Part shown: positions 14,277 to 29,395 of the stretch, in pieces
Layout of the letters: each line of letters starts with the position of its first letter
Position numbering within the stretch: the first letter of the stretch is position 1
Source of the DNA: a virus
IMG/VR virus record: IMGVR_UViG_3300037485_000651
Coordinates: 1 to 29,539 of that record
DNA: 29,539 nt
Strand: one strand, 5' to 3'
Notes under the pieces: generated by a model
What the model saw: only the letters and a program-made list of their open reading frames with translations
The model's database searches: none
What the model was told of the DNA's origin: nothing
Made by a program: the position numbers and the translations under genes

Positions 14277-15775
14277 GCTATGAATTGTTTTACTTGTTTT
14301 AAATCAAATACTTCACGCATCATAAGCATATCCATTAAATCCGGGGAATCGCCATTTAGCTTTATTTTCATTTCATCCTTACCGATAATCTTTAGCTTGC
14401 CATCCATGTCAACCTTGGACCTTTTTATCGCCTTGCGCTCAAACATAAACCTTTGTCGAATTGTCATGGTCGAATCATACATTTTATTTGCCGCCCTTTC
14501 ATTTATTTTTAAATCGCCTCTATTGGCCTTATCGCCTGAACGGTAGTAACACTGCGTTTTTAGATTAAAGTAATTCTCTTTAATCATTTTGTTAGAAGCC
14601 TTATCCCGTATTTCAATCACTGGCGAGCCGCCATTAAACGGGATTGCACCACGAATAAAGCCGTCAACAAAACTACCAACACCATCAGCGTCGTAGCAAA
14701 TGTACCTATTTTCAACCGAATAATATTTGGCAACTTCAGAAATTAATTGTATAACATCTTTACCATCGCTTTTATCCATCACTTCGATGTCCATCAATTC
14801 ATTCCCTTCCCAATACCCAACAACTAACTTATTGCTTCCTTTCATTGCAATATCAGCAGTAATGAACTTGCCCACCTTGCTAACTTCTTTCACGTTATCG
14901 AACACGCCACTAAAAGCATTGTAATCGTACACATCCATTGGGCTTGTACTCATCTTCCAATTCCCCTCAAGTAATTGCTTACGGGTATCTTCATCCTGAC
15001 TTAATAAGTTTCCCGGATAAGATGGGTCGTTCTTTAAGCCTTCTTTATTATCGTAGATTGAACCGGAAACAAATGTGATTGATTTAATAAAGTCTTTCGG
15101 GGTTAAACCTGACTGAATAACCATAGGTTCAAGAAAGTGCCAAGCCTTTTCTTTTACCTCATCGTAACTATCTCCCCAAATGTAATCAGAACCGTATTTA
15201 ATGAAATACCTGATTACGCCCCTACGTTCTAATATCGCGTACCCGGTTTCAGGGTCTATCCACCACTCGACTAATTTAGCCACCCAACTCTCAGGGTCGG
15301 GGTTGCAGGTAGCCCTTACGTAAGGCTTCACCCCACATTCGGAACGGTTACGGGATAGTAGGTAAAAGAACATACTTTCCGTGAAGTGGGTAAGTTCATC
15401 AAATCCCAAAAACGGTATCTGTGCCCCTTGCCAGTCGTATTTATTCTTTTCGTATTCTAAATGCCGAAATGAAACCTTTGAGCCGTTTGACCAAGTCCAA
15501 TCCAAACTACTTTCACGTGGTTCACCGCCTGCTCCCATGTACAACTTTACGGAGGTATCCCATAAGCCACCCTCATTCCTTACCTGAACACTTGTGCGCC
15601 TGAATATTACCGCCCCGTAATTGTTCACCTTTACGCCCCTGACAGCATCAAGAAGTAAAGCAAAGGTTTTACCCACAAATGCAGCAGCCCCACCAATAAC
15701 AATATCAGCCGTGCTGCTTAAAGCAATCTGTTGGTAACCTTCTTGTGGTTCGATATACTTTACGTTAACTGCCAC
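14273..15775 (-). CDS. Large terminase subunit (packaging ATPase and nuclease)
   Basis: With a GTG start at 15775 this protein has 500 residues. An unusual Walker A, GGAAAFVGKT (residues 28-37), lies in the ATPase domain, with Walker B FLGFDE at 122-127. The nuclease domain has ITADIAMKGSNKL, CYDADGVGSFVDGF, and GDSPDLMDMLMM near the C-terminus, the three acidic clusters expected. I prefer the GTG because the family usually starts shortly before 'EPQEGYQQIAL'. A TTG at 15844 would also be in frame but would overlap the upstream gene by 85 bases; the GTG overlaps by 16. The gene is separated from the small terminase by three enzyme genes. Confidence 0.92.
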   Translation of the reverse strand: MAVNVKYIEPQEGYQQIALSSTADIVIGGAAAFVGKTFALLLDAVRGVKVNNYGAVIFRRTSVQVRNEGGLWDTSVKLYMGAGGEPRESSLDWTWSNGSKVSFRHLEYEKNKYDWQGAQIPFLGFDELTHFTESMFFYLLSRNRSECGVKPYVRATCNPDPESWVAKLVEWWIDPETGYAILERRGVIRYFIKYGSDYIWGDSYDEVKEKAWHFLEPMVIQSGLTPKDFIKSITFVSGSIYDNKEGLKNDPSYPGNLLSQDEDTRKQLLEGNWKMSTSPMDVYDYNAFSGVFDNVKEVSKVGKFITADIAMKGSNKLVVGYWEGNELMDIEVMDKSDGKDVIQLISEVAKYYSVENRYICYDADGVGSFVDGFIRGAIPFNGGSPVIEIRDKASNKMIKENYFNLKTQCYYRSGDKANRGDLKINERAANKMYDSTMTIRQRFMFERKAIKRSKVDMDGKLKIIGKDEMKIKLNGDSPDLMDMLMMREVFDLKQVKQFIA

Positions 15776-16953
15776 TTTTCTTTTAAATATTGATATTCGG
15801 TTTCCGTGTGATTGCCCTGTTTCCTTGACGTGCTGCCATCCCAATAACGCTGTCCAATTAAGTTCTTTGTAATGACGTGAGGAGGACCATACTTTTGGTA
15901 AAGCCTCCAGTAAAATTCACAATCAAGTAATGTCTTCAAATTGGTATCAAATTCAAAGTCCACTTTGTTAAAGCCGATAACCGAAGGCATCCCGATTGTA
16001 TTTCTGCCTTTGATTATTTCGTCTGTCCATCTTGGAACTATTGGACGCCCTTTAATGCTTTTAGCATCAAGTCTAACGGAATGAGAAATAGCCCAGCCGT
16101 GCGAATCAAGTGCTTTACTAAATTCTTTAACCATATCATTGGATAAACATAAATCATCCATGTAGATGATCTTAATCTTATCGTAACTGGCTTTGCTAAT
16201 AGCGAAGTTAGTATTAGCCGAAATGCCCTGAACAGGGTTATGGTAATACTCAACGTTGTAGTTTGAACAAACGTCTTTTAATGAATGTCCGTTATCCGAA
16301 ACAATTATCTCATGCTCTCCGGTTAAGTTCGCCAAGCTGTTTAACAATTTTGTAAGCATCGCCTTACCGTTGCCGTATTGGTGGAATGCCGGAATACAGA
16401 TAGATATTCCATAGGGTAAAAGATTGAGCCATTCTTTTTTGTGCTTTTCAAATCCTTCATAGGTAGGATTATCAACCACCAACGGTATCTGTTCGCCCTT
16501 TTGAATAACACCAACCCCGTAATCGACATCATGAACTTTCATTGACAGGTCTTTCCTTTCCCTGAAGTGTAACCATGCTTTCCATACATCGCCTGTCCAT
16601 TCTCCCTGCTCACGTGGTACAGCCTGCATGGCTTTGCTTGTCGGATTACAGTCATGCACAACTATTGAACCGCCTTTGCTTAAGCAAGATAAACTGTTTT
16701 CAATATCCTTTACCACCTGCTCCGAATGATGAAGCCCATCAATGAATATAATATCGAAACTGGCTTTGTTTTGCGCAAAGAAAGCATCCGATGTAAGGGC
16801 ATGGGTAGCCAATACGGTAGGGTTCGGGTCAACGCCCACCTTAGTTTTACACTTTATTTTATTGAAGTTCCATTCCTTGTTATAAACGCCGATTTCAAGA
16901 TATGACTTGTAGCCGTGTTCAGTTATTAGGTTGTTAATAATATCCCACCTCAT
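15760..16953 (-). CDS. Methyltransferase-glycosyltransferase (GT2) fusion
   Basis: Residues 1-150 are a class I SAM-dependent methyltransferase-like domain: SYLEIGVYN at 18-25 (motif I), VGVDPNP at 39-45, SFDIIFIDGLHHSEQVVKDI at 65-84 and GGSIVVHDCNP at 94-104. Residues 182-397 are a family 2 glycosyltransferase-like domain: GISICIPAFHQYGNG (182-196), HEIIVSDNGHS, QGISANTNFAISKA and the DxD-type site IIYMDDLCLS (262-271), with the WRLYQKYG and QRYWDGS segments later. Fusion of the two suggests one enzyme that adds and methylates a sugar. The acceptor is unknown. It is tied to neighbours by short overlaps (ATGA upstream). Confidence 0.8.
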   Translation of the reverse strand: MRWDIINNLITEHGYKSYLEIGVYNKEWNFNKIKCKTKVGVDPNPTVLATHALTSDAFFAQNKASFDIIFIDGLHHSEQVVKDIENSLSCLSKGGSIVVHDCNPTSKAMQAVPREQGEWTGDVWKAWLHFRERKDLSMKVHDVDYGVGVIQKGEQIPLVVDNPTYEGFEKHKKEWLNLLPYGISICIPAFHQYGNGKAMLTKLLNSLANLTGEHEIIVSDNGHSLKDVCSNYNVEYYHNPVQGISANTNFAISKASYDKIKIIYMDDLCLSNDMVKEFSKALDSHGWAISHSVRLDAKSIKGRPIVPRWTDEIIKGRNTIGMPSVIGFNKVDFEFDTNLKTLLDCEFYWRLYQKYGPPHVITKNLIGQRYWDGSTSRKQGNHTETEYQYLKEKWQLT

Positions 16954-17573
16954 TTTAAATGACTTGTTACAGTTAGATAATCGTTTTTATGGAAGCCGTT
17001 GAAATAGAATGTATTTAGGTCCATCCCGTGCTTTTCGGCAAAGTAGCTAAAGCTACATTGGTCAAACATTGCGTGTTTGCGTTCATGCTCAAACCAATCT
17101 TTACCAAAGTCGTGAAAGAACTGATTATTCCAGTAAGCGAAGCATCCGCACCAGTATAACGGATAATCATCACCAACTATCTTTCTTTCGGCTTTTAGCT
17201 TTTCAGGGTCGTAACGGGATGCTAAGTAATTATTCCCTTTTTTAATTTCTGAAAGGATGTAATCATACTCCTCGCCAGTTGTTCCCCGGTATGGGTGGTT
17301 GCTGATAGCAATATCGTGTGTTTCCAGCCTTTCAACCATCATCCGGGCAAAGGATGGGTTTGTAATAGTTACGTTACCATCAATCCAAATGATAATTTCA
17401 TAATCAGGGAAATGGCCGTGTATATTCATTTTTACCATCTTTCCAATAGTCCTATCATCAAAAGAGCCGCCAATATCGGTTACAGTCTTAAAATCACATT
17501 CAATATCCTGCTCAATGTGCTGTTTCTGGCTGTCAAAACCGCCAATATTAGCGGATAGGATAAGTACTTTCAT
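16950..17573 (-). CDS. TOD1/DUF616-like glycosyltransferase
   Basis: This 207-residue protein has the segment KMVKMNIHGHFPDYEI followed by IIWIDGNVTI (residues 46-70), then ISNHPYRGTTGEEYDYI, GGxxGYY-like YPLYWCGCFAYW, and MFDQCSFSYFAEKHG. A basic/aromatic 'K...FPDY...WIDGN' segment, the HPxR motif and a DQ(x)SF motif are features I associate with the TOD1/MUCI70 (former DUF616) glycosyltransferase-like group. WIDGN supplies a metal-binding acidic site (D-x-N type). It probably transfers a sugar together with its two neighbours. Membership is from pattern recall, so moderate confidence. Confidence 0.7.
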   Translation of the reverse strand: MKVLILSANIGGFDSQKQHIEQDIECDFKTVTDIGGSFDDRTIGKMVKMNIHGHFPDYEIIIWIDGNVTITNPSFARMMVERLETHDIAISNHPYRGTTGEEYDYILSEIKKGNNYLASRYDPEKLKAERKIVGDDYPLYWCGCFAYWNNQFFHDFGKDWFEHERKHAMFDQCSFSYFAEKHGMDLNTFYFNGFHKNDYLTVTSHLK

Positions 17574-18208
17574 ATTTCATATTTTGATTTGGTTGGAAAT
17601 AATCGGGGTAAAACGCTTAAGTTATTGCAACTTTCGGTAGTGCTGAAATATGGTACATTTAAAGTTTTTGGTATCGTGTTGAACTTATGGTCTTCATGGA
17701 ATACACCCGTGATGTTGTTAGATGCGCAATATGACGTTTTAAAGCAGTATCCGTGGTGTACAGTCCATTTGAGGTTAATTGCCTTTAAGCCCCCCCTATT
17801 CATCACCATAGGGCAATGAGTATCGTAATTCATCACATCCCCGAAAACGTCAATCGTATTCTGCATCATCCTGCCGTAACTGCCGTTCTTATTCCTAATC
17901 CGCAAATTATCAATCATCCTACCTTTATGGTGCAACCCCTGATAAGGGGCTAATAGAAAGTGATCATCATTACAAAAATAAAAATCCCCATCCAAAAGCT
18001 CAGCCCCGGCCACCGTCTTATCAAATATATTTTTTTCCTTAAACATCACTTCGTAATCCTTGTGCGGTAAATGTTCTCCTGTGTACCAATCAGGCTTACC
18101 GCCCACAATCAACACCCTTTCAGGATTCAGCCATTTTTCAAATGACCGTAAGGCGTAGCGTAATTCATAAAAGCCTTTGCCGTTAATCAACGGAATCAAT
18201 ACGTCCAT
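17570..18208 (-). CDS. Stealth-like sugar (phospho)transferase
   Basis: The 212-residue protein reads DVLIPLINGKGFYELRYALR at the start and GDFYFCNDDHFLL at residues 74-86. In Stealth-family capsular polysaccharide phosphotransferases the first conserved region is an acidic 'D/N-x-x-ELRYSLRS' segment and the second carries 'FIYLNDDFFL'; both are recognisable here, with RSFEKWLNPERVLIVGG between them. It may move a hexose-phosphate onto a surface or virion glycan. The remaining half (YDTHCPMVMNRGG, then VHHGYCF and HEDHKF) is consistent with a short Stealth-like protein. Start is the ATG at 18208; it overlaps the small terminase by 26 bases. Confidence 0.65.
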   Translation of the reverse strand: MDVLIPLINGKGFYELRYALRSFEKWLNPERVLIVGGKPDWYTGEHLPHKDYEVMFKEKNIFDKTVAGAELLDGDFYFCNDDHFLLAPYQGLHHKGRMIDNLRIRNKNGSYGRMMQNTIDVFGDVMNYDTHCPMVMNRGGLKAINLKWTVHHGYCFKTSYCASNNITGVFHEDHKFNTIPKTLNVPYFSTTESCNNLSVLPRLFPTKSKYEI

Positions 18209-18623: not shown

Positions 18624-19700
18624 TTACACATCTTCCATCTGTTGTATTGCTTTAAAAATCTGTAATGCCACCTGTGGCACAATAGCGTTACCTGCTGCCT
18701 TTATGGATTCGTTTCGCCATTTAGGAAAGGTAATGCCGTCCAGTCGGGTGGAAAGCCCATCATCTCCAAAACGAATAGGGGGTTGAGTTGGGAAGTTTTG
18801 CCAGTAATTTCCCGACTCATTTTCACCAATGAATCCTGATTCTCCAGTCCTGTTACTTTGTCCCCGCAATCCGATGCCATTGGTGTTGGCAACATCTTGC
18901 TTGCTATTACATCCTCCAAATTCCCTTTCTGTCTGTCGTTGCTGCAATTCCCCCCTGCTGCTCTTGCCCTCACGGTTGGCAGCATCCCCGCCCATCTGCT
19001 CAATGTTACGCTGTGCATACTCCCCTCCTTCACCTGTGTTGATTTCATGTTGGCTGTAGCTCCCGTGCTGTCCATTGCTGTTGGGGTGGGGATCATCTTG
19101 TAAATCCTCTCCAATAAAAATCCGTTCTTTGCTTCCTGTGCTAAGTTGCCCGATGTTCCCGAAATCCCCTTGCTTGTCATGTTCTCCATTTCCGCATCCA
19201 TTGCGCCCGGTGTCTTTAAAAGCAATAAACCAAACCCTATCCCTTCTGTGGGGAGCGTTGACGGCACAAGCTGGAAGTACATACGCCCAGACTTCGTACC
19301 CCGCAGCTTCCAAGTCAGTTTGCACCTCATCGAATACCATCCCTTCATTCCAATTAATGAGGCCGCCAACATTTTCGCCCACAACCCAACGTGGTTGAAC
19401 TTCTCTAATTGCTCTAAGCATTTCCGGCCACAAGTGGCGTTCATCTTCTTTGCCTTTTCGTTTTCCTGCAAGGCTGTAGGGCTGGCAGGGGAATCCTCCT
19501 GTAAGAATATCAATTCTGTTTGCATATTTTGTAAAATCTGTTTTAGTAATATCTGAAAATCCTTCCGCTTCCGGAAAGTGATGCCGTAAAACTTTTTGTC
19601 CAAATTCATTCCATTCGCACCAGGCTAACGTTTCCCAACCCATCCACCTGGCAGCAAGTGAAAAACCTCCGATGCCTTCAAACAGTCCTAAGTGGTTCAT
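18624..19700 (-). CDS. DNA (cytosine-5) methyltransferase
   Basis: This 358-residue enzyme has all core motifs of C5 cytosine methyltransferases: motif I GLFEGIGGFSLA (5-16), motif IV GGFPCQPYSLAG with the catalytic Cys71, motif VI GENV (106-109), motif VIII HRRDRVWFIA (149-158), and motif X AAGNAIVPQVALQIFKAI near the end. It probably methylates phage DNA against host restriction. Between 160 and 310 the sequence is low-complexity and rich in Gly, Asn and Gln, where a target-recognition domain should be, and this same DNA carries a long ORF in the +1 frame (18701-19609). It overlaps the next upstream gene by 23 bases. Confidence 0.92.
   Translation of the reverse strand: MNHLGLFEGIGGFSLAARWMGWETLAWCEWNEFGQKVLRHHFPEAEGFSDITKTDFTKYANRIDILTGGFPCQPYSLAGKRKGKEDERHLWPEMLRAIREVQPRWVVGENVGGLINWNEGMVFDEVQTDLEAAGYEVWAYVLPACAVNAPHRRDRVWFIAFKDTGRNGCGNGEHDKQGDFGNIGQLSTGSKERIFIGEDLQDDPHPNSNGQHGSYSQHEINTGEGGEYAQRNIEQMGGDAANREGKSSRGELQQRQTEREFGGCNSKQDVANTNGIGLRGQSNRTGESGFIGENESGNYWQNFPTQPPIRFGDDGLSTRLDGITFPKWRNESIKAAGNAIVPQVALQIFKAIQQMEDV
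18701..19609 (-). CDS. Overlapping ORF inside the methyltransferase gene (+1 frame)
   Basis: A 302-codon ORF starts with an ATG at 19609 and lies wholly inside the methyltransferase gene in the +1 frame. It does not read like a chance frame. Residues 40-100 (ASPTALQENEKAKKM, CGRKCLEQLEKF, MRCKLTWKLRG, RMYFQLVPSTLPTEG) and the repeated LPTPxAxD motifs in the second half (IPTPTAMD, MLPTPMASD), then QLNPLFVLEMMGFPPDW, look like segments I recall from single-frame phage methylase-associated proteins. The second half lies where the methyltransferase frame is low-complexity. It could be a separate protein or an extension made by frameshifting. The first half could instead look familiar only because the overlapping frame is conserved. 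Confidence 0.5.
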   Translation of the reverse strand: MNLDKKFYGITFRKRKDFQILLKQILQNMQTELIFLQEDSPASPTALQENEKAKKMNATCGRKCLEQLEKFNHVGLWAKMLAASLIGMKGWYSMRCKLTWKLRGTKSGRMYFQLVPSTLPTEGIGFGLLLLKTPGAMDAEMENMTSKGISGTSGNLAQEAKNGFLLERIYKMIPTPTAMDSTGATANMKSTQVKEGSMHSVTLSRWAGMLPTVRARAAGGNCSNDRQKGNLEDVIASKMLPTPMASDCGDKVTGLENQDSLVKMSREITGKTSQLNPLFVLEMMGFPPDWTALPFLNGETNP

Positions 19701-21392: not shown

Positions 21393-21413
21393 GTTGCGTA
21401 AAGCAAAGTGTTA
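21393..21413 (-). repeat. Cassette-end repeat, leftward copy
   Basis: On the leftward strand this 21-base element has TAAC at one end and GCTTTACGCAAC at the other. Copies at 28745-28765 and 29339-29359 on the plus strand match it at about 19 of 21 bases. It begins 11 bases after the stop of the 21424-21726 gene, as the others sit at or just after stop codons. Confidence 0.7.
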
Positions 21414-21781
21414 GCAGAAATGGCTACTGACCGTTTCCAATTGACAATTCAGCCAATAAAGCATCAGCATATTTGACTGCTATTTGCGACACATACTTTG
21501 TGTAATGTTCATCAAACGAATATTTTGTTTCTTTCGGCAATCCAATCGCTTCAAGAACATAGGTAGATGAAATTTGGGTTTCAGAAGAGTTGGCTAAAAA
21601 ACCTTTCATTGCTGAAATTGCAAAGTGTTCTCTTTTTGTTAGTCCAAAATATACATCGTGTTGAATTGTGCCATCTTGATTTTGGTGTGGCATTGGGTTA
21701 ATTGGTTGTTCTGAATTTTTTAGCATTTTATTACGTTTTTAAATTAATACCCTTGTAAATTAACCGCCACTTCTGCTAACA
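21409..21781. repeat. 16-bp inverted repeats flanking one small gene
   Basis: The left arm at 21409-21424 (TGTTAGCAGAAATGGC) and right arm at 21766-21781 (GCCACTTCTGCTAACA) are inverted repeats with 15 of 16 bases matching. Between them lies exactly one gene, 21424-21726. The left arm reaches the first base of its stop codon. This resembles the boundaries of a mobile gene cassette. Confidence 0.65.
21424..21726 (-). CDS. Small conserved-type phage protein in a repeat-flanked cassette
   Basis: The 100-residue protein has DVYFGLTKREHFAISAMKGF followed by LAN, then a C-terminal helix IAVKYADALLAELSIGN. The 'LTKREYFA..AMQGLLAN...YADALIAEL' pattern is common among small proteins of many phages; I do not know its function. 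The gene is bordered by 16-bp inverted repeats and sits downstream of a large imperfect palindrome, unlike the tightly overlapped genes around it, which suggests it moved in as a unit. Confidence 0.75.
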   Translation of the reverse strand: MLKNSEQPINPMPHQNQDGTIQHDVYFGLTKREHFAISAMKGFLANSSETQISSTYVLEAIGLPKETKYSFDEHYTKYVSQIAVKYADALLAELSIGNGQ

Positions 21782-21907
21782 AGGGTTTGTAGCAATAGGG
21801 GCAGAAGGAACTAAATTGAGCCTTAGTACTTCTATTAGGCTGTGGTGCTATATTCAACAGTAGTGCCATAAATCCCCTACTGCTACAAGCCCCAAAACGT
21901 TATCGGC
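21771..21907 (-). repeat. Imperfect palindrome, cassette-boundary type
   Basis: Outer motifs CTGCTAACAAGGGTTTG (21773-21789) and CAAGCCCCAAAACGTTATCG (21887-21906) bracket inner arms TTGTAGCAATAGGGG (21787-21801) and CCCCTACTGCTACAA (21874-21888), which pair at 14 of 15 positions. The spacer of 72 bases has weaker pairing. The right end supplies the CGA TAA (Arg, stop) that ends the 21900-22343 gene. The layout recalls attC sites and the long imperfect palindromes between accessory genes in Bacteroidota chromosomes; I cannot match the exact attC consensus. Confidence 0.55.
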
Positions 21908-22343
21908 TATTTAGGGCAAACCACTCTAAGGTAACAGTTACCTCATACGGCTGACCAAAAGCACCACTTAAACGCAAAACCTTGCTGTATTCCAAATTAC
22001 TATCTCTTATGTCATTAAAAGAAACTTGTTCATATTGACCATAATATTGATCAATCAATTTATTAGCATTTGCAACTGTATCTGCAACACCTATAACCGA
22101 CTGTTCTTTATCTTCATGGTCTTTTTCGTGGATGACAATTAAACTGCCCATAACTTGCGTGCGGCAGGACAGAACGTGTTGAACAAACTGCAACATATCC
22201 CACCAGTCAATTTCACTCTTATCTTCATTGGTTGTTAAATCCATCAAAGGATATTTGGCTTCAAAATATTGCCTTGCGACTTCTTCGATTTGTTCAATAG
22301 AAGCCGCAGCCGATAACACTGCTTTTGCGTCTTGGAATTGCAT
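21900..22343 (-). CDS. Uncharacterised acidic protein, cassette-type
   Basis: This 147-residue protein is acidic and soluble: MQFQDAKAVLSAAASIEQIE at the start, DKSEIDWWDMLQFVQHVLSC in the middle, and FGQPYEVTVTLEWFALNSR at the end. I do not recognise a family. Its last codons, AGC CGA TAA, are part of the palindromic element that follows; the gene at 29111-29341 also ends with GC CGA TAA inside a related repeat. That shared ending supports a repeat-bounded cassette origin. It starts four bases after the stop of the small membrane protein at 22347-22517. Confidence 0.65.
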   Translation of the reverse strand: MQFQDAKAVLSAAASIEQIEEVARQYFEAKYPLMDLTTNEDKSEIDWWDMLQFVQHVLSCRTQVMGSLIVIHEKDHEDKEQSVIGVADTVANANKLIDQYYGQYEQVSFNDIRDSNLEYSKVLRLSGAFGQPYEVTVTLEWFALNSR

Positions 22344-25281: not shown

Positions 25282-25646
25282 GGCGGTAGTTTTAGATGGG
25301 TGAGGTAATTAGGTTGCCTGGTTGCATTTTCAATGTCATCGGAAACGTAAACATTGTATGCCATACCATACCCGTTCGTAAATGGAGTGGTTATAACTAC
25401 AAGATACAATTCCTTTTCCGTGTCCTCTACTTCAAGCATGAGGTTGTTCGACGATTCATAAAAATTAGTATAAGATCCGTTAATCTGCCATGTTTTTTTT
25501 ATGCCATTAACCGCACCACCTAACGGAAATTGGTCATCGGTTTCAAAGTTAGTTAAATGCTTCACTTCCCTGCCATCGGCAGTTACTGGTTTGCCGCCTG
25601 CCTTCCATGCTTCGATGCTGAAGGGGATTGTTTTTGTTTTTTTCAT
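25269..25646 (-). CDS. Small phage protein, paralogue of 26179-26622 product
   Basis: This 125-residue protein starts MKKTKTIPFSIEAWKAGGKP, with VTADGREVKHLTNF, then FPLGGAVNGIKKTW and a later hydrophobic LYLVVITTPF. The protein encoded at 26179-26622 has the same plan (W.SGDYLKVVTGL, LLEFTEF, YPLIGSANGYRKSF, DLFLIVAD), so the two are probably paralogues. The 'W..G....T..G..V..L..F......PL.G...G' layout occurs in small early proteins of many phages; role unknown. It is coupled to the upstream gene by ATGA. Confidence 0.7.
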   Translation of the reverse strand: MKKTKTIPFSIEAWKAGGKPVTADGREVKHLTNFETDDQFPLGGAVNGIKKTWQINGSYTNFYESSNNLMLEVEDTEKELYLVVITTPFTNGYGMAYNVYVSDDIENATRQPNYLTHLKLPPCNS

Positions 25647-26182
25647 TGTATCATTGTTTTAAGGTGATTGATTTGTTCAGAACTTGCCGCATAAAATGCC
25701 GCAGAACTTGCCGCAGAATATGCCGCATCACTTGCCGCATCACTTGCCGCATAAAATACCGCAGAACTTGCCGCAGAAAATGCCGCAGAACTTGCCGCAG
25801 AATATGCCGCAGAATATGCCGCAGAAAGTTCTTCATCCGTAGAACTTGCCGCAGAATATGCCGCAGAATATGCCGCAGAAAGTTCTTCATCCGTTGCCTC
25901 GCCATTAGCATATCTTTCAGCTACATTACAAGCCTCTACACTTCTTGCATCAGGGTTTTTAATTAACTTCAAAGCCTCCCTTGCACACCACACGGCAAAT
26001 AATCTCAAAGTTTTTACATCAATAAATTCCTCCCTAAGAACCACCCATAGCCTATCGTGAGGAGGGCAATCTTCTACATTTAGAATGTCAAGTACCGTAC
26101 CTGTCCAGTCTTCGGGAATGTATTTTATCGGGTCGTAACAAAGCGTTAACGCCTTGATGTCGTTGTATGTTATTTGTTTCAT
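25643..26182 (-). CDS. Protein with alanine-rich YSAA repeats
   Basis: The product from ATG 26182 has 179 residues. A longer frame begins at 26236, but the ATG at 26182 overlaps the upstream TGA (ATGA), so it is the better start. Residues 1-105 form an alpha-helical domain (DIKALTLCYDPIKYIPEDW, DRLWVVLREEFIDVKTLRLF followed by AVWCAREAL, RSVEACNVAERYANGEATDE). The C-terminal 70 residues are an Ala/Ser/Tyr repeat of SAAY and SAAS units. Similar helical domain plus Ala-rich tails occur in phage accessory proteins I have seen; an immunity- or superinfection-type role has been suggested for look-alikes but is not shown here. Confidence 0.75.
   Translation of the reverse strand: MKQITYNDIKALTLCYDPIKYIPEDWTGTVLDILNVEDCPPHDRLWVVLREEFIDVKTLRLFAVWCAREALKLIKNPDARSVEACNVAERYANGEATDEELSAAYSAAYSAASSTDEELSAAYSAAYSAASSAAFSAASSAVFYAASDAASDAAYSAASSAAFYAASSEQINHLKTMIQ
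25684..25894 (-). repeat. Coding 12-nt repeats with a 54-nt tandem duplication
   Basis: The DNA cycles with a 12-base period (GCCGCAGAACTT-type units). Within it, 25787-25840 and 25841-25894 are perfect, adjacent 54-base copies, encoding TDEELSAAYSAAYSAASS twice. The perfect identity implies recent duplication by slippage or unequal exchange. Repeat units are in frame, so copy changes alter only the tail length. Confidence 0.85.
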
Positions 26183-26622
26183 ACTGTATATTTTTCTTTG
26201 GTGATAAAATCTAAATCCTGAATTACCTTGTGCCATGACTTGACAGCAAATATCTGTGATGCTTTCAAGTCGGGGAATGTGTAAACAAACGCATCACGAC
26301 TTTGCAACTTTTCCGCACGCACCTTAATAAAATTGCCTGTTGCTTCCCATTGGTTATTATCAACCGGGATGTTGTAATCAAATTCAATTGGTTCGTTATC
26401 GGCAACGATTAGGAAAAGGTCTTCGGCATTTTCTACTTCATCTGTGAGGTAATGTCCTTTTTTAGTGAAGGATTTTCGGTATCCGTTTGCAGAGCCGATA
26501 AGGGGATAATTTATAAGTGTTTTAAACTCTGTAAACTCCAATAATTCTGTATCAAGACCTGTTACTACTTTAAGGTAATCACCGCTTTTCCAGCGGTCGT
26601 AATCGAATTTTACTTTTTTCAT
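26179..26622 (-). CDS. Small phage protein, paralogue of 25269-25646 product
   Basis: This 147-residue protein starts MKKVKFDYDRWKSGDYLKVV, with ELLEFTEFKTLINYPLIGSA then NGYRKSFTKKGHY, DLFLIVAD and a C-terminal extension (KSWHKVIQDLDFITKEKYTV) absent from the shorter paralogue. Only the first 100 residues are shared. It overlaps the repeat protein gene by four bases (ATGA). I do not know its function; two copies around the repeat gene suggest duplication of an early-gene unit. Confidence 0.7.
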   Translation of the reverse strand: MKKVKFDYDRWKSGDYLKVVTGLDTELLEFTEFKTLINYPLIGSANGYRKSFTKKGHYLTDEVENAEDLFLIVADNEPIEFDYNIPVDNNQWEATGNFIKVRAEKLQSRDAFVYTFPDLKASQIFAVKSWHKVIQDLDFITKEKYTV

Positions 26623-28420: not shown

Positions 28421-28735
28421 ATGAAACAAAAAACATTAATTAAACAGGCAATTGAACTTTTAGAGCAACATAGGAAAGCATTGCAGAAAATGGATTTGTT
28501 AGGCGTTCTTTTAGAAAACGAACTTACTCACAAGTCAAATGAAATAAACACCATTCAATTGTTATTAGCCAAACTAATACCAACAGAAGAAAAGCAAATG
28601 ATTGATTTTCATATTGAAGTTATGAAGATTGGGCTAATTCAAGAAGGTGGTAAAAAATGGTCAGAAGACTATTTACCTAGGATTAAAGAAACTGCTGAAA
28701 AGTATTATGGTCAAACTTTTGGTGATGTCGCTTAG
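28421..28735 (+). CDS. Uncharacterised helical protein
   Basis: The 104-residue product (MKQKTLIKQAIELLEQHRKA onward, then LLGVLLENELTHKSNEINTI) is mostly helical and charged and ends EKYYGQTFGDVA. It stops three bases before a 63-base intergenic repeat. The 106-base gap in front of it contains GCTAACC repeats and a weak GTAGTG/CACTAT palindrome but no ORF. Function unknown. Confidence 0.6.
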   Translation: MKQKTLIKQAIELLEQHRKALQKMDLLGVLLENELTHKSNEINTIQLLLAKLIPTEEKQMIDFHIEVMKIGLIQEGGKKWSEDYLPRIKETAEKYYGQTFGDVA

Positions 28736-28737
28736 GG

Positions 28738-28800
28738 TTGCCAATAACACGTCGCTTTACGCAACTAACAATTTAAAATAAACACATGAACGAAAAAGAA
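28738..28800 (+). repeat. Intergenic repeat, copy A
   Basis: This 63-base element differs from copy B (29332-29395) at only about four positions. It includes the TAAC/GCTTTACGCAAC cassette-end element (28745-28765), the AACTAACAATTTAAA leader, and the start ATGAACGAAAAAGAA of the following gene. It therefore spans one gene's end and the next gene's start. Confidence 0.8.
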
Positions 28801-29031
28801 AAAGCAAAAGAATTGGTTGAAAAATACCTAAACACAATTATTCATTTCCCATACATTGATACGGAAGATGGTAACTGTATAGGAACTGGTTATATGACGC
28901 ATAATTCTGCTGTCAGATGTGCTATAAATGCAGTTGATGAGATAATAGAATGCACTAAAAATGGTTTAGGCACAACTAAATTCTCAAAAGAATATTGGCA
29001 AGAAGTCAAGTCGGAGTTGCAGTCTTTTTAA
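28786..29031 (+). CDS. Small phage protein, MNEKE-start
   Basis: The 81-residue product (MNEKEKAKELVEKYLNTIIH then CIGTGYMTHNSAVRCAINAV) has a charged N-terminal helix, a middle segment with Cys and His, and a helix EYWQEVKSELQSF. The pattern 'EKAKELVEKY....A..CA...VDEII' is common in small uncharacterised early proteins of Bacteroidota phages. Its first five codons lie inside the intergenic repeat and are shared with the gene at 29381. Confidence 0.7.
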   Translation: MNEKEKAKELVEKYLNTIIHFPYIDTEDGNCIGTGYMTHNSAVRCAINAVDEIIECTKNGLGTTKFSKEYWQEVKSELQSF

Positions 29032-29110
29032 AGTTGCGTATAACTTTTTTGGGCTTTGTGTCCGTTGGCGATTTAAACCACAGATGTTAAATTAAAAAAC
29101 AAATATTGAT

Positions 29111-29341
29111 ATGAGCAAAAAAGTTGAATTGAAAGACGAAACCGCCAATGGCACAAAACCCGTGTTATCGGCAGGTTTTTATATCACGGATTTTTGTAAA
29201 TGCAAGTGTGGGGAGGAAGTAAGCCCATCACAAGCAGACACAGTTAATCAGATATTGTATGATGATAACAGAGATAAGGTTGTCGGTTTTGAGTGTTGGA
29301 AATGTGGTGAGTGGATTGCATTTCCTAAAACTTGCCGATAA
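29111..29341 (+). CDS. Zinc-ribbon protein with repeat-supplied stop
   Basis: The 76-residue protein has two metal-binding pairs: CKCKCGE (residues 29-35) and CWKCGEW (61-67), consistent with a small zinc ribbon. It ends ...KTCR with the codons TGC CGA TAA; the TGC CGA TAA belongs to copy B of the intergenic repeat, so the repeat supplies its last residues and stop. The gene at 21900-22343 ends the same way (AGC CGA TAA) in a related repeat. Confidence 0.75.
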   Translation: MSKKVELKDETANGTKPVLSAGFYITDFCKCKCGEEVSPSQADTVNQILYDDNRDKVVGFECWKCGEWIAFPKTCR

Positions 29342-29395
29342 CCCGTCGCTTTACGCAACTAACAATTTAAAAATAATCACATGAACGAAAAAGAA
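29332..29395 (+). repeat. Intergenic repeat, copy B
   Basis: A 64-base near-copy of 28738-28800, with about four differences, one of them a single-base insertion. It starts in the last codons of the zinc-ribbon gene and ends within the first codons of the next gene. Confidence 0.8.

Follow-up and report, generated by a model that had tools for sequence, protein, structure and literature searches.

A small phage gene behind a folded hairpin looks like a cassette of a second, apparently undescribed integron-like system of Bacteroidota and their phages

Integrons are thought to require IntI, whose special insertion grips the folded attC site, and integron cassettes also have secondary insertion sites, called attG. 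Other work has stated that the IntI-specific insertion near patch III defines the integron integrase (PMC9668308) and that it is essential to integron function (PMC8138268). In Bacteroidetes, a standard integron finder gave integrases without cassettes and then one complete integron only (PMC9024848). The closest described phage elements are the integrons and CALINs that Qi et al. 2023 (PMC9892861) reported from phages, cassette-like arrays of which some are integrase-less, with methyltransferase cargo; canonical attC models served to find their sites, several are active with IntI1, and the accessible part of the article reports no recombinase of the kind described below.

The DNA analysed here (the window) is a whole virus record of 29.5 kb (IMGVR_UViG_3300037485_000651; 29,539 nucleotides) with genes for a terminase, a portal, a major head protein and a candidate tail tape-measure protein. 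Three successive genes (15760-18208, - strand), transcribed ahead of the terminase, are methyltransferase- or glycosyltransferase-like by sequence, and a 302-aa open frame overlaps most of a DNA methyltransferase gene in another frame (18701-19609 and 18624-19700, - strand). The protein at 25643-26236 (- strand) has a repetitive Ala/Ser-rich stretch (AASDAAYSAASS...) and weakly matches Imm5-like families; the underlying DNA looks tandemly repeated.

The original prediction for this record described a gene between 16-nt inverted repeats, beside a 137-base palindrome with outer motifs CTAAC and GTTAT in which the upstream gene ends, and likened the layout to integron cassettes. The repeats are present (21409-21424 against 21766-21781, 15/16 positions matching), as is the palindrome (21771-21907; GCTAAC...GTTATC on the + strand), and the outer TAAC shares bases with the stop codon of the upstream gene (TAA, 21900-21902). 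Folded as single-stranded DNA, 21771-21907 reaches -22.5 kcal/mol (z -3.2), and 0/200 shuffles are equally stable. The inverted repeat alone is weak, since three such pairs occur in the window against 0-2 in dinucleotide shuffles, and without the hairpin family described below it would be no evidence. It is comparison with other loci that lifts the locus above chance, because the covariance model of that family finds it at 119.3 bits (E 3.6e-21). Our main reading, to which we give a probability of about 0.83, takes the locus for a mobile cassette whose parent system, integron-like and, as far as sampled, confined to Bacteroidota and their phages, works by a recombination that we infer. Features of the window are collected in Table 1; cassette B is the bracketed gene with its hairpin and cassette A is the gene upstream of it.

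Table 1. Putative cassettes, hairpin sites and acceptor sites in the window
Feature	Position	Strand	Basis or remark
Cassette B, attC-like hairpin, putative recombination site (R1 family)	21766..21913	-	Covariance model R1 119.3 bits, E 3.6e-21; DNA fold z -3.2; 16/17 family pairs covarying
Cassette B, hairpin core	AAC 21899-21901; GTT 21778-21780	-	R1 family site
Cassette B, inferred mobile unit C-hairpin-GTT-gene-..AA	21411..21899	-	Complementary ends; hairpin and gene travel together in homologous pairs
Cassette B, start box GTTAGCAGAAGTGGC	21766..21780	-	Same box ahead of unrelated genes in ~12 viral contigs and Pedobacter segetis
Cassette B, end box GCCATTTCTGCTAAC	21410..21424	-	Complements own start box except one G.T
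Cassette B, gene, 100 aa, function unknown	21424..21726	-	phrog_2201 C-terminal match
Putative acceptor site 1, AACACTTTGCTTTACGCAAC, attI-like, directly after cassette B	21393..21412	-	attI matrix rank 8 of 1251 AAC sites
Cassette A, gene, 147 aa	21900..22343	-	Start box GTTATCGGCT inside 5' end (22317-22309); end box AGCCGATAAC (21908-21899)
Second hairpin, putative recombination site (R1 family)	29030..29178	+	Covariance model R1 125.4 bits, E 2.5e-22
Second cassette, gene, 76 aa	29111..29341	+	Starts within own hairpin (MSKKVELKDETANGTKPVLSAG...)
Second cassette, boxes GTTATCGGC and GCCGATAAC	29164-29172; 29334-29342	+	Cassette ends
Putative acceptor site 2, AACACGTCGCTTTACGCAAC, after gene 28421-28735	28746..28765	+	Acceptor motif match
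Putative acceptor site 3, AACCCGTCGCTTTACGCAAC, after second cassette	29340..29359	+	Acceptor motif match

The hairpin family was defined by an alignment (A1) and a covariance model (R1) built from 35 hairpins. Its consensus begins with AAC and five unpaired nucleotides, followed by 4 bp, a 1x1 mismatch, 8 bp that open with a nearly invariant T-A, a second 1x1 mismatch and 5 bp; beyond a ~60-nt loop the strand returns and closes with a single unpaired nucleotide and GTT, which makes a site of ~120 nt. Sixteen of the 17 consensus pairs have compensatory changes on both sides, the covariation score is 0.848 (0.204 when shuffled, ~0.1 with the partners slid), and 91.5% of the alignment cells pair, against 55% in shuffles. 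The hairpins vary in sequence and are constant in structure, a conserved hairpin fold being a property of integron attC sites too, and no Rfam family was found to fit them. The folded strand is modestly more stable than the opposite one (33/43 and 47/79), with a finder that is biased to that strand. Details of the site differ from attC. Only AAC and GTT are invariant in the boxes, which read GTTA-NNN (for example GTTAGCA or GTTATCG) and do not meet RYYYAAC/GTTRRRY; TAAC/GTTANNN with a long extension stands in place of the integron boxes, the spacers are asymmetric (5/1), and where integrons have extrahelical bases the consensus has two 1x1 mismatches and no conserved bulge, although this last comparison is a prediction only. 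The attC-like reading in the original prediction was right in that this is a cassette hairpin site, with the correction that neither is the site canonical attC nor the recombinase associated with it IntI. Scanning the window with R1 gave two true sites only, 21766-21913 (-) and 29030-29178 (+), all else scoring below 15 bits.

Such hairpins stand in tandem arrays, uniformly oriented, in which the end box of each cassette complements its own start box, as GTTAGCAGAAGTGGC and GCCATTTCTGCTAAC do in the window; strict matching of the ends holds in ~115/145 adjacent hairpin pairs beside viral recombinases. Which gene owns a hairpin was asked of 288 cassettes containing 55 homologous pairs. When close homologues lie at different places, the hairpin before the GTT box is 80-100% identical, and the sequence after the cassette and before the hairpin is at background (0.5-0.65). 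The hairpin therefore travels with the gene behind it, and the unit is C-hairpin-GTT-gene-..AA. This linkage rules out the palindrome as part of the upstream gene, to which it had originally been assigned; it goes with the bracketed gene, which lies downstream of it. The crossover should fall in AAC beside the 5-nt spacer, a cut position that we infer, and the geometry of the unit is that of the bottom-strand cut of integron attC. A relative of the cassette B gene at 88% identity is found in a 73-kb viral contig (L003), with a different hairpin after it and within a row of different genes that have different hairpins between them and matching end boxes for each cassette. The 15-mer GTTAGCAGAAGTGGC itself has 58 matches in viral contigs, which is about the chance number, and cassette context at only ~13 loci.

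R1 sites occur in 111/198 Bacteroidota genomes and in many viral contigs, which upholds the proposed tie to palindromes of Bacteroidota chromosomes. Two outcomes that would have refuted the cassette idea, no matching elements elsewhere or the same gene with unrelated flanks, were looked for and neither was found. One of the genomes, Pedobacter segetis, has the same GTTAGCAG cassette and encodes a 348-aa tyrosine recombinase (P0001) directly before the cassette row. Close relatives of this recombinase are encoded by 58/198 genomes; 20/30 close recombinase loci have an R1 site no more than 1.5 kb away, and 11/20 more remote ones have a site in the 11 kb around them. The two also occur in the same genomes: R1 is present in 54 of the 58 genomes with the recombinase and in 57 of the 140 without it (OR 19.7, p 8e-13). 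About half of the R1-bearing genomes (57/111) have no recombinase match at a strict threshold, an absence that may be due to draft genomes, remote members or integrase-less clusters. At several dozen chromosomal and viral loci an attI-like motif (TAAC, N5, TATAT) separates the last cassette from the recombinase. For the chromosomal recombinases nearest P0001 its distance to the 3' end is mostly ~95-105 nt, and in viral loci it mostly stands 12-51 nt before the start of the recombinase. As in integrons (IntI, attI and attC, including the sedentary chromosomal ones), tandem one-gene cassettes with a folded palindromic site and complementary ends stand in uniform orientation next to an attI beside a tyrosine recombinase, and the proposed likeness to integron cassettes is borne out in kind by the hairpin family, the arrays, the attI-like motif and the recombinase. 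The array differs from that of integrons in lying 3' of the chromosomal recombinase.

The recombinase comes closest to the plainer XerA/XerC-like type. Of the NCBIfam models, NF040815 ('site-specific tyrosine recombinase/integron integrase') fits it best, at 217 bits and so just short of the cut-off of 220, and it reaches 200.7 bits against the integron-integrase model TIGR02249 (cut-off 265). Among solved structures its nearest relatives are XerA proteins of archaea, and the alignment with the Vibrio integron integrase 2a3v falls into two pieces around a missing segment. The spacer from GKG..R to HxLRH is 58-59 residues in nearly all of 49 associated recombinases and 100 in 20 canonical IntI, so the IntI-specific insertion of integron integrases is absent. 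In a tree, canonical IntI form one supported group and the others fall outside it. The structure that AlphaFold2 predicts for one of the phage enzymes (pLDDT 87) resembles XerA best (Z 19.5; 2a3v, Z 18.1), and the catalytic R, K, H, R, H and Y are invariant in 31 phage enzymes. By inference, this enzyme acts on hairpin cassettes beside attI, unlike XerA/XerC-like recombinases at dif or chromosome-dimer sites. Chromosomal recombinases nearest P0001 have an N-terminal extension of ~70 residues (L151, 15302-15520) which the phage versions lack. Among GenBank phages, the best matches to the recombinase are ordinary phage integrases below 40% identity.

Relatives of the recombinase are also encoded in viral contigs, the largest of them 362 kb long, and the whole system is present there. 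Hairpins were detected by a strict finder at 61/80 viral recombinase loci, where with few exceptions they share one orientation and their row stops at the recombinase, and R1 has 199 matches at such loci. Terminase matches, one of them weak, were found in 8/25 of these viral records, and so at least seven records are phages. In one viral record the same GTTAGCAG cassette occurs together with a gene for the recombinase and ~20 sites. The cargo includes several DNA methyltransferases and one exonuclease, and most of it is unknown. In another viral contig (L048, 110-3850) at least nine tRNA genes adjoin a dense R1 cassette array.

Chromosomal and viral cassettes differ in gene polarity. Chromosomal cassette genes are antisense to the folded strand by 38:5, which is the classical polarity, toward the 3' site. 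Viral cassette genes are sense with it by 26:0 and 105:2, together 131/133, so that phage cassette genes point away from their own hairpin, the reverse of both this system's chromosomal cassettes and classical integrons. In 82/197 phage cassettes the start codon is inside the hairpin, as with MSKKVELKDETANGTKPVLSAG in the window, and unrelated small phage proteins begin with recurrent N-terminal tags (LNISDV, KPVLxAV, PPLLIADVSGS) that the hairpin arms encode (L264-L343), which makes sense only if hairpin and gene move together. A role of the tags in translation or targeting is possible.

Cassette A has cassette-like boxes, the end box including the stop codon TAA and the start box lying within the coding start, but no left hairpin arm was found when the upstream sequence was inspected by eye, nor does R1 match there; it looks like an older cassette whose hairpin has lost its left arm, and we infer that it is probably immobile. 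It shares a box trinucleotide with the cassette at 29164, as judged from the occurrences of GTTATCGGC, and its protein has no relatives in the viral contigs. The gene at 28421-28735 ends cassette-like in GGGTTGCCAATAAC but is without a hairpin. The acceptor motif AACNCNTNGCTTTACGCAAC occurs three times in the window (0 expected); against the attI matrix it is a weak match (ranks 8 and 26 of 1251 AAC sites), its layout resembles attI, and we read these copies, on sequence grounds, as possible landing sites. No other viral contig with the motif was found. Like attG sites, the acceptors carry solitary cassettes with no integrase nearby; they differ from the attG and attI of IntI in resembling the attI of the R1 system (N5-GCTTTACGCAA). 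The starts and first codons of the genes at 28786 and 29381 (28746-28800 and 29340-29395, + strand) are near-copies through a duplicated leader, made up of the acceptor motif and CAACTAACAATTTAAAA...CACATGAACGAAAAAGAA. No relative of the R1-associated recombinase was found in a search of the whole 29.5-kb record, as the original prediction's remark that no integrase is visible had suggested. Neither the window hairpins nor the cassette protein had a match among GenBank phages, and no closely related phage was found that shares the neighbours of this locus and could provide a version of it without the cassette.

These might be ordinary integron cassettes whose unusual attC sites are moved by the canonical IntI of Bacteroidota hosts. 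Canonical IntI is indeed common, in 57/198 Bacteroidota genomes, and phage-borne attC, including those of a Polaribacter phage, have been published, some of which recombine with IntI1 (PMC9892861). But there is no R1 site in the 188 kb around 20 canonical IntI of the same phylum (L224-L243; ~5 kb flanks), canonical IntI and R1 show no positive association across genomes (OR 0.5), the R boxes do not fit GTTRRRY, and R1 has no significant counterpart in the published phages: Polaribacter phage P12002L gives at best 19.5 bits (E 0.05), and Vibrio phage p16 and phage TJE1 give no match. On position and co-occurrence we reject canonical IntI as the driver, and we consider an IntI-moved attC unlikely. 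That the hairpins act in RNA, as terminators, leaders or translation control, and are spread by general phage mosaicism with no site-specific recombination, could be argued from the start codons inside phage hairpins, and covariation does not separate RNA from DNA. Chromosomal array genes, however, run antisense to the folded strand, so their mRNA would carry the other strand, and complementary cassette ends, attI and the association with a recombinase would be left unexplained; we consider this account highly improbable. The palindromes could also be non-autonomous, MITE-like transposons that insert between genes and flank them by chance, for they have terminal inverted boxes around the gene and copies in unrelated contexts. 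Yet the hairpins keep their structure while diverse in sequence and the units abut in arrays beside attI, and no target duplications were noticed, without a systematic test; we find this account scarcely credible.

The mobile-cassette reading leads to the following scheme. The sequences themselves show how the site is built, where the unit begins and ends, the arrays, the attI motif, the tie to the recombinase and the gene polarity. One strand of the ~120-nt site would fold into a hairpin, and the Xer-like tyrosine recombinase without the IntI insertion would cut the folded strand at AA|C, a position and a single-strand chemistry that are inferred. The cut strand may then be exchanged with attI (TAAC|N5-TATAT.CGCAA) or with another hairpin, and the unit C-hairpin-GTT-gene-..AA would leave or enter as an inferred circle. 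On chromosomes the recombinase stands next to attI and to an array whose genes have the classical polarity; in phages the genes at the same sites are reversed, with the hairpin on their 5' side, where it often supplies their start codon and N-terminus. Since the window phage has acceptors and cassettes but no recombinase, its cassettes may be moved in trans by the enzyme of the host or of a co-infecting phage. Recombination itself remains an inference, and the mobility is not backed by any observed circle, empty site or assay of recombination.

The arrays adjoin a recombinase other than the classical integron integrase, so the system looks like a second integron-like means of gene shuffling, one that has apparently gone undescribed. 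Its function, as inferred, is like that of an integron, yet it fails two tested defining features, the IntI insertion and the R boxes RYYYAAC/GTTRRRY, and by these it is not an IntI integron. No description of it was found in the literature, in a search that left out preprints and most subscription journals. With less assurance than for the locus itself, we think it somewhat probable that this is a second integron lineage, using a Xer-like recombinase without the IntI insertion and folded hairpins, which is the common cassette system in Bacteroidota and which large phages carry with mirrored cassettes and a site that doubles as a translation start, phage and host drawing on one cassette pool. 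If so, a plainer Xer-like enzyme would suffice for single-strand cassette recombination, and the origin of integrons would become testable by comparing the two systems. There would be a large uncounted pool of cassettes, given sites in more than half of the sampled Bacteroidota genomes as against one complete integron (PMC9024848), and phages that carry both recombinase and arrays would be a direct route of gene exchange between phage and host.
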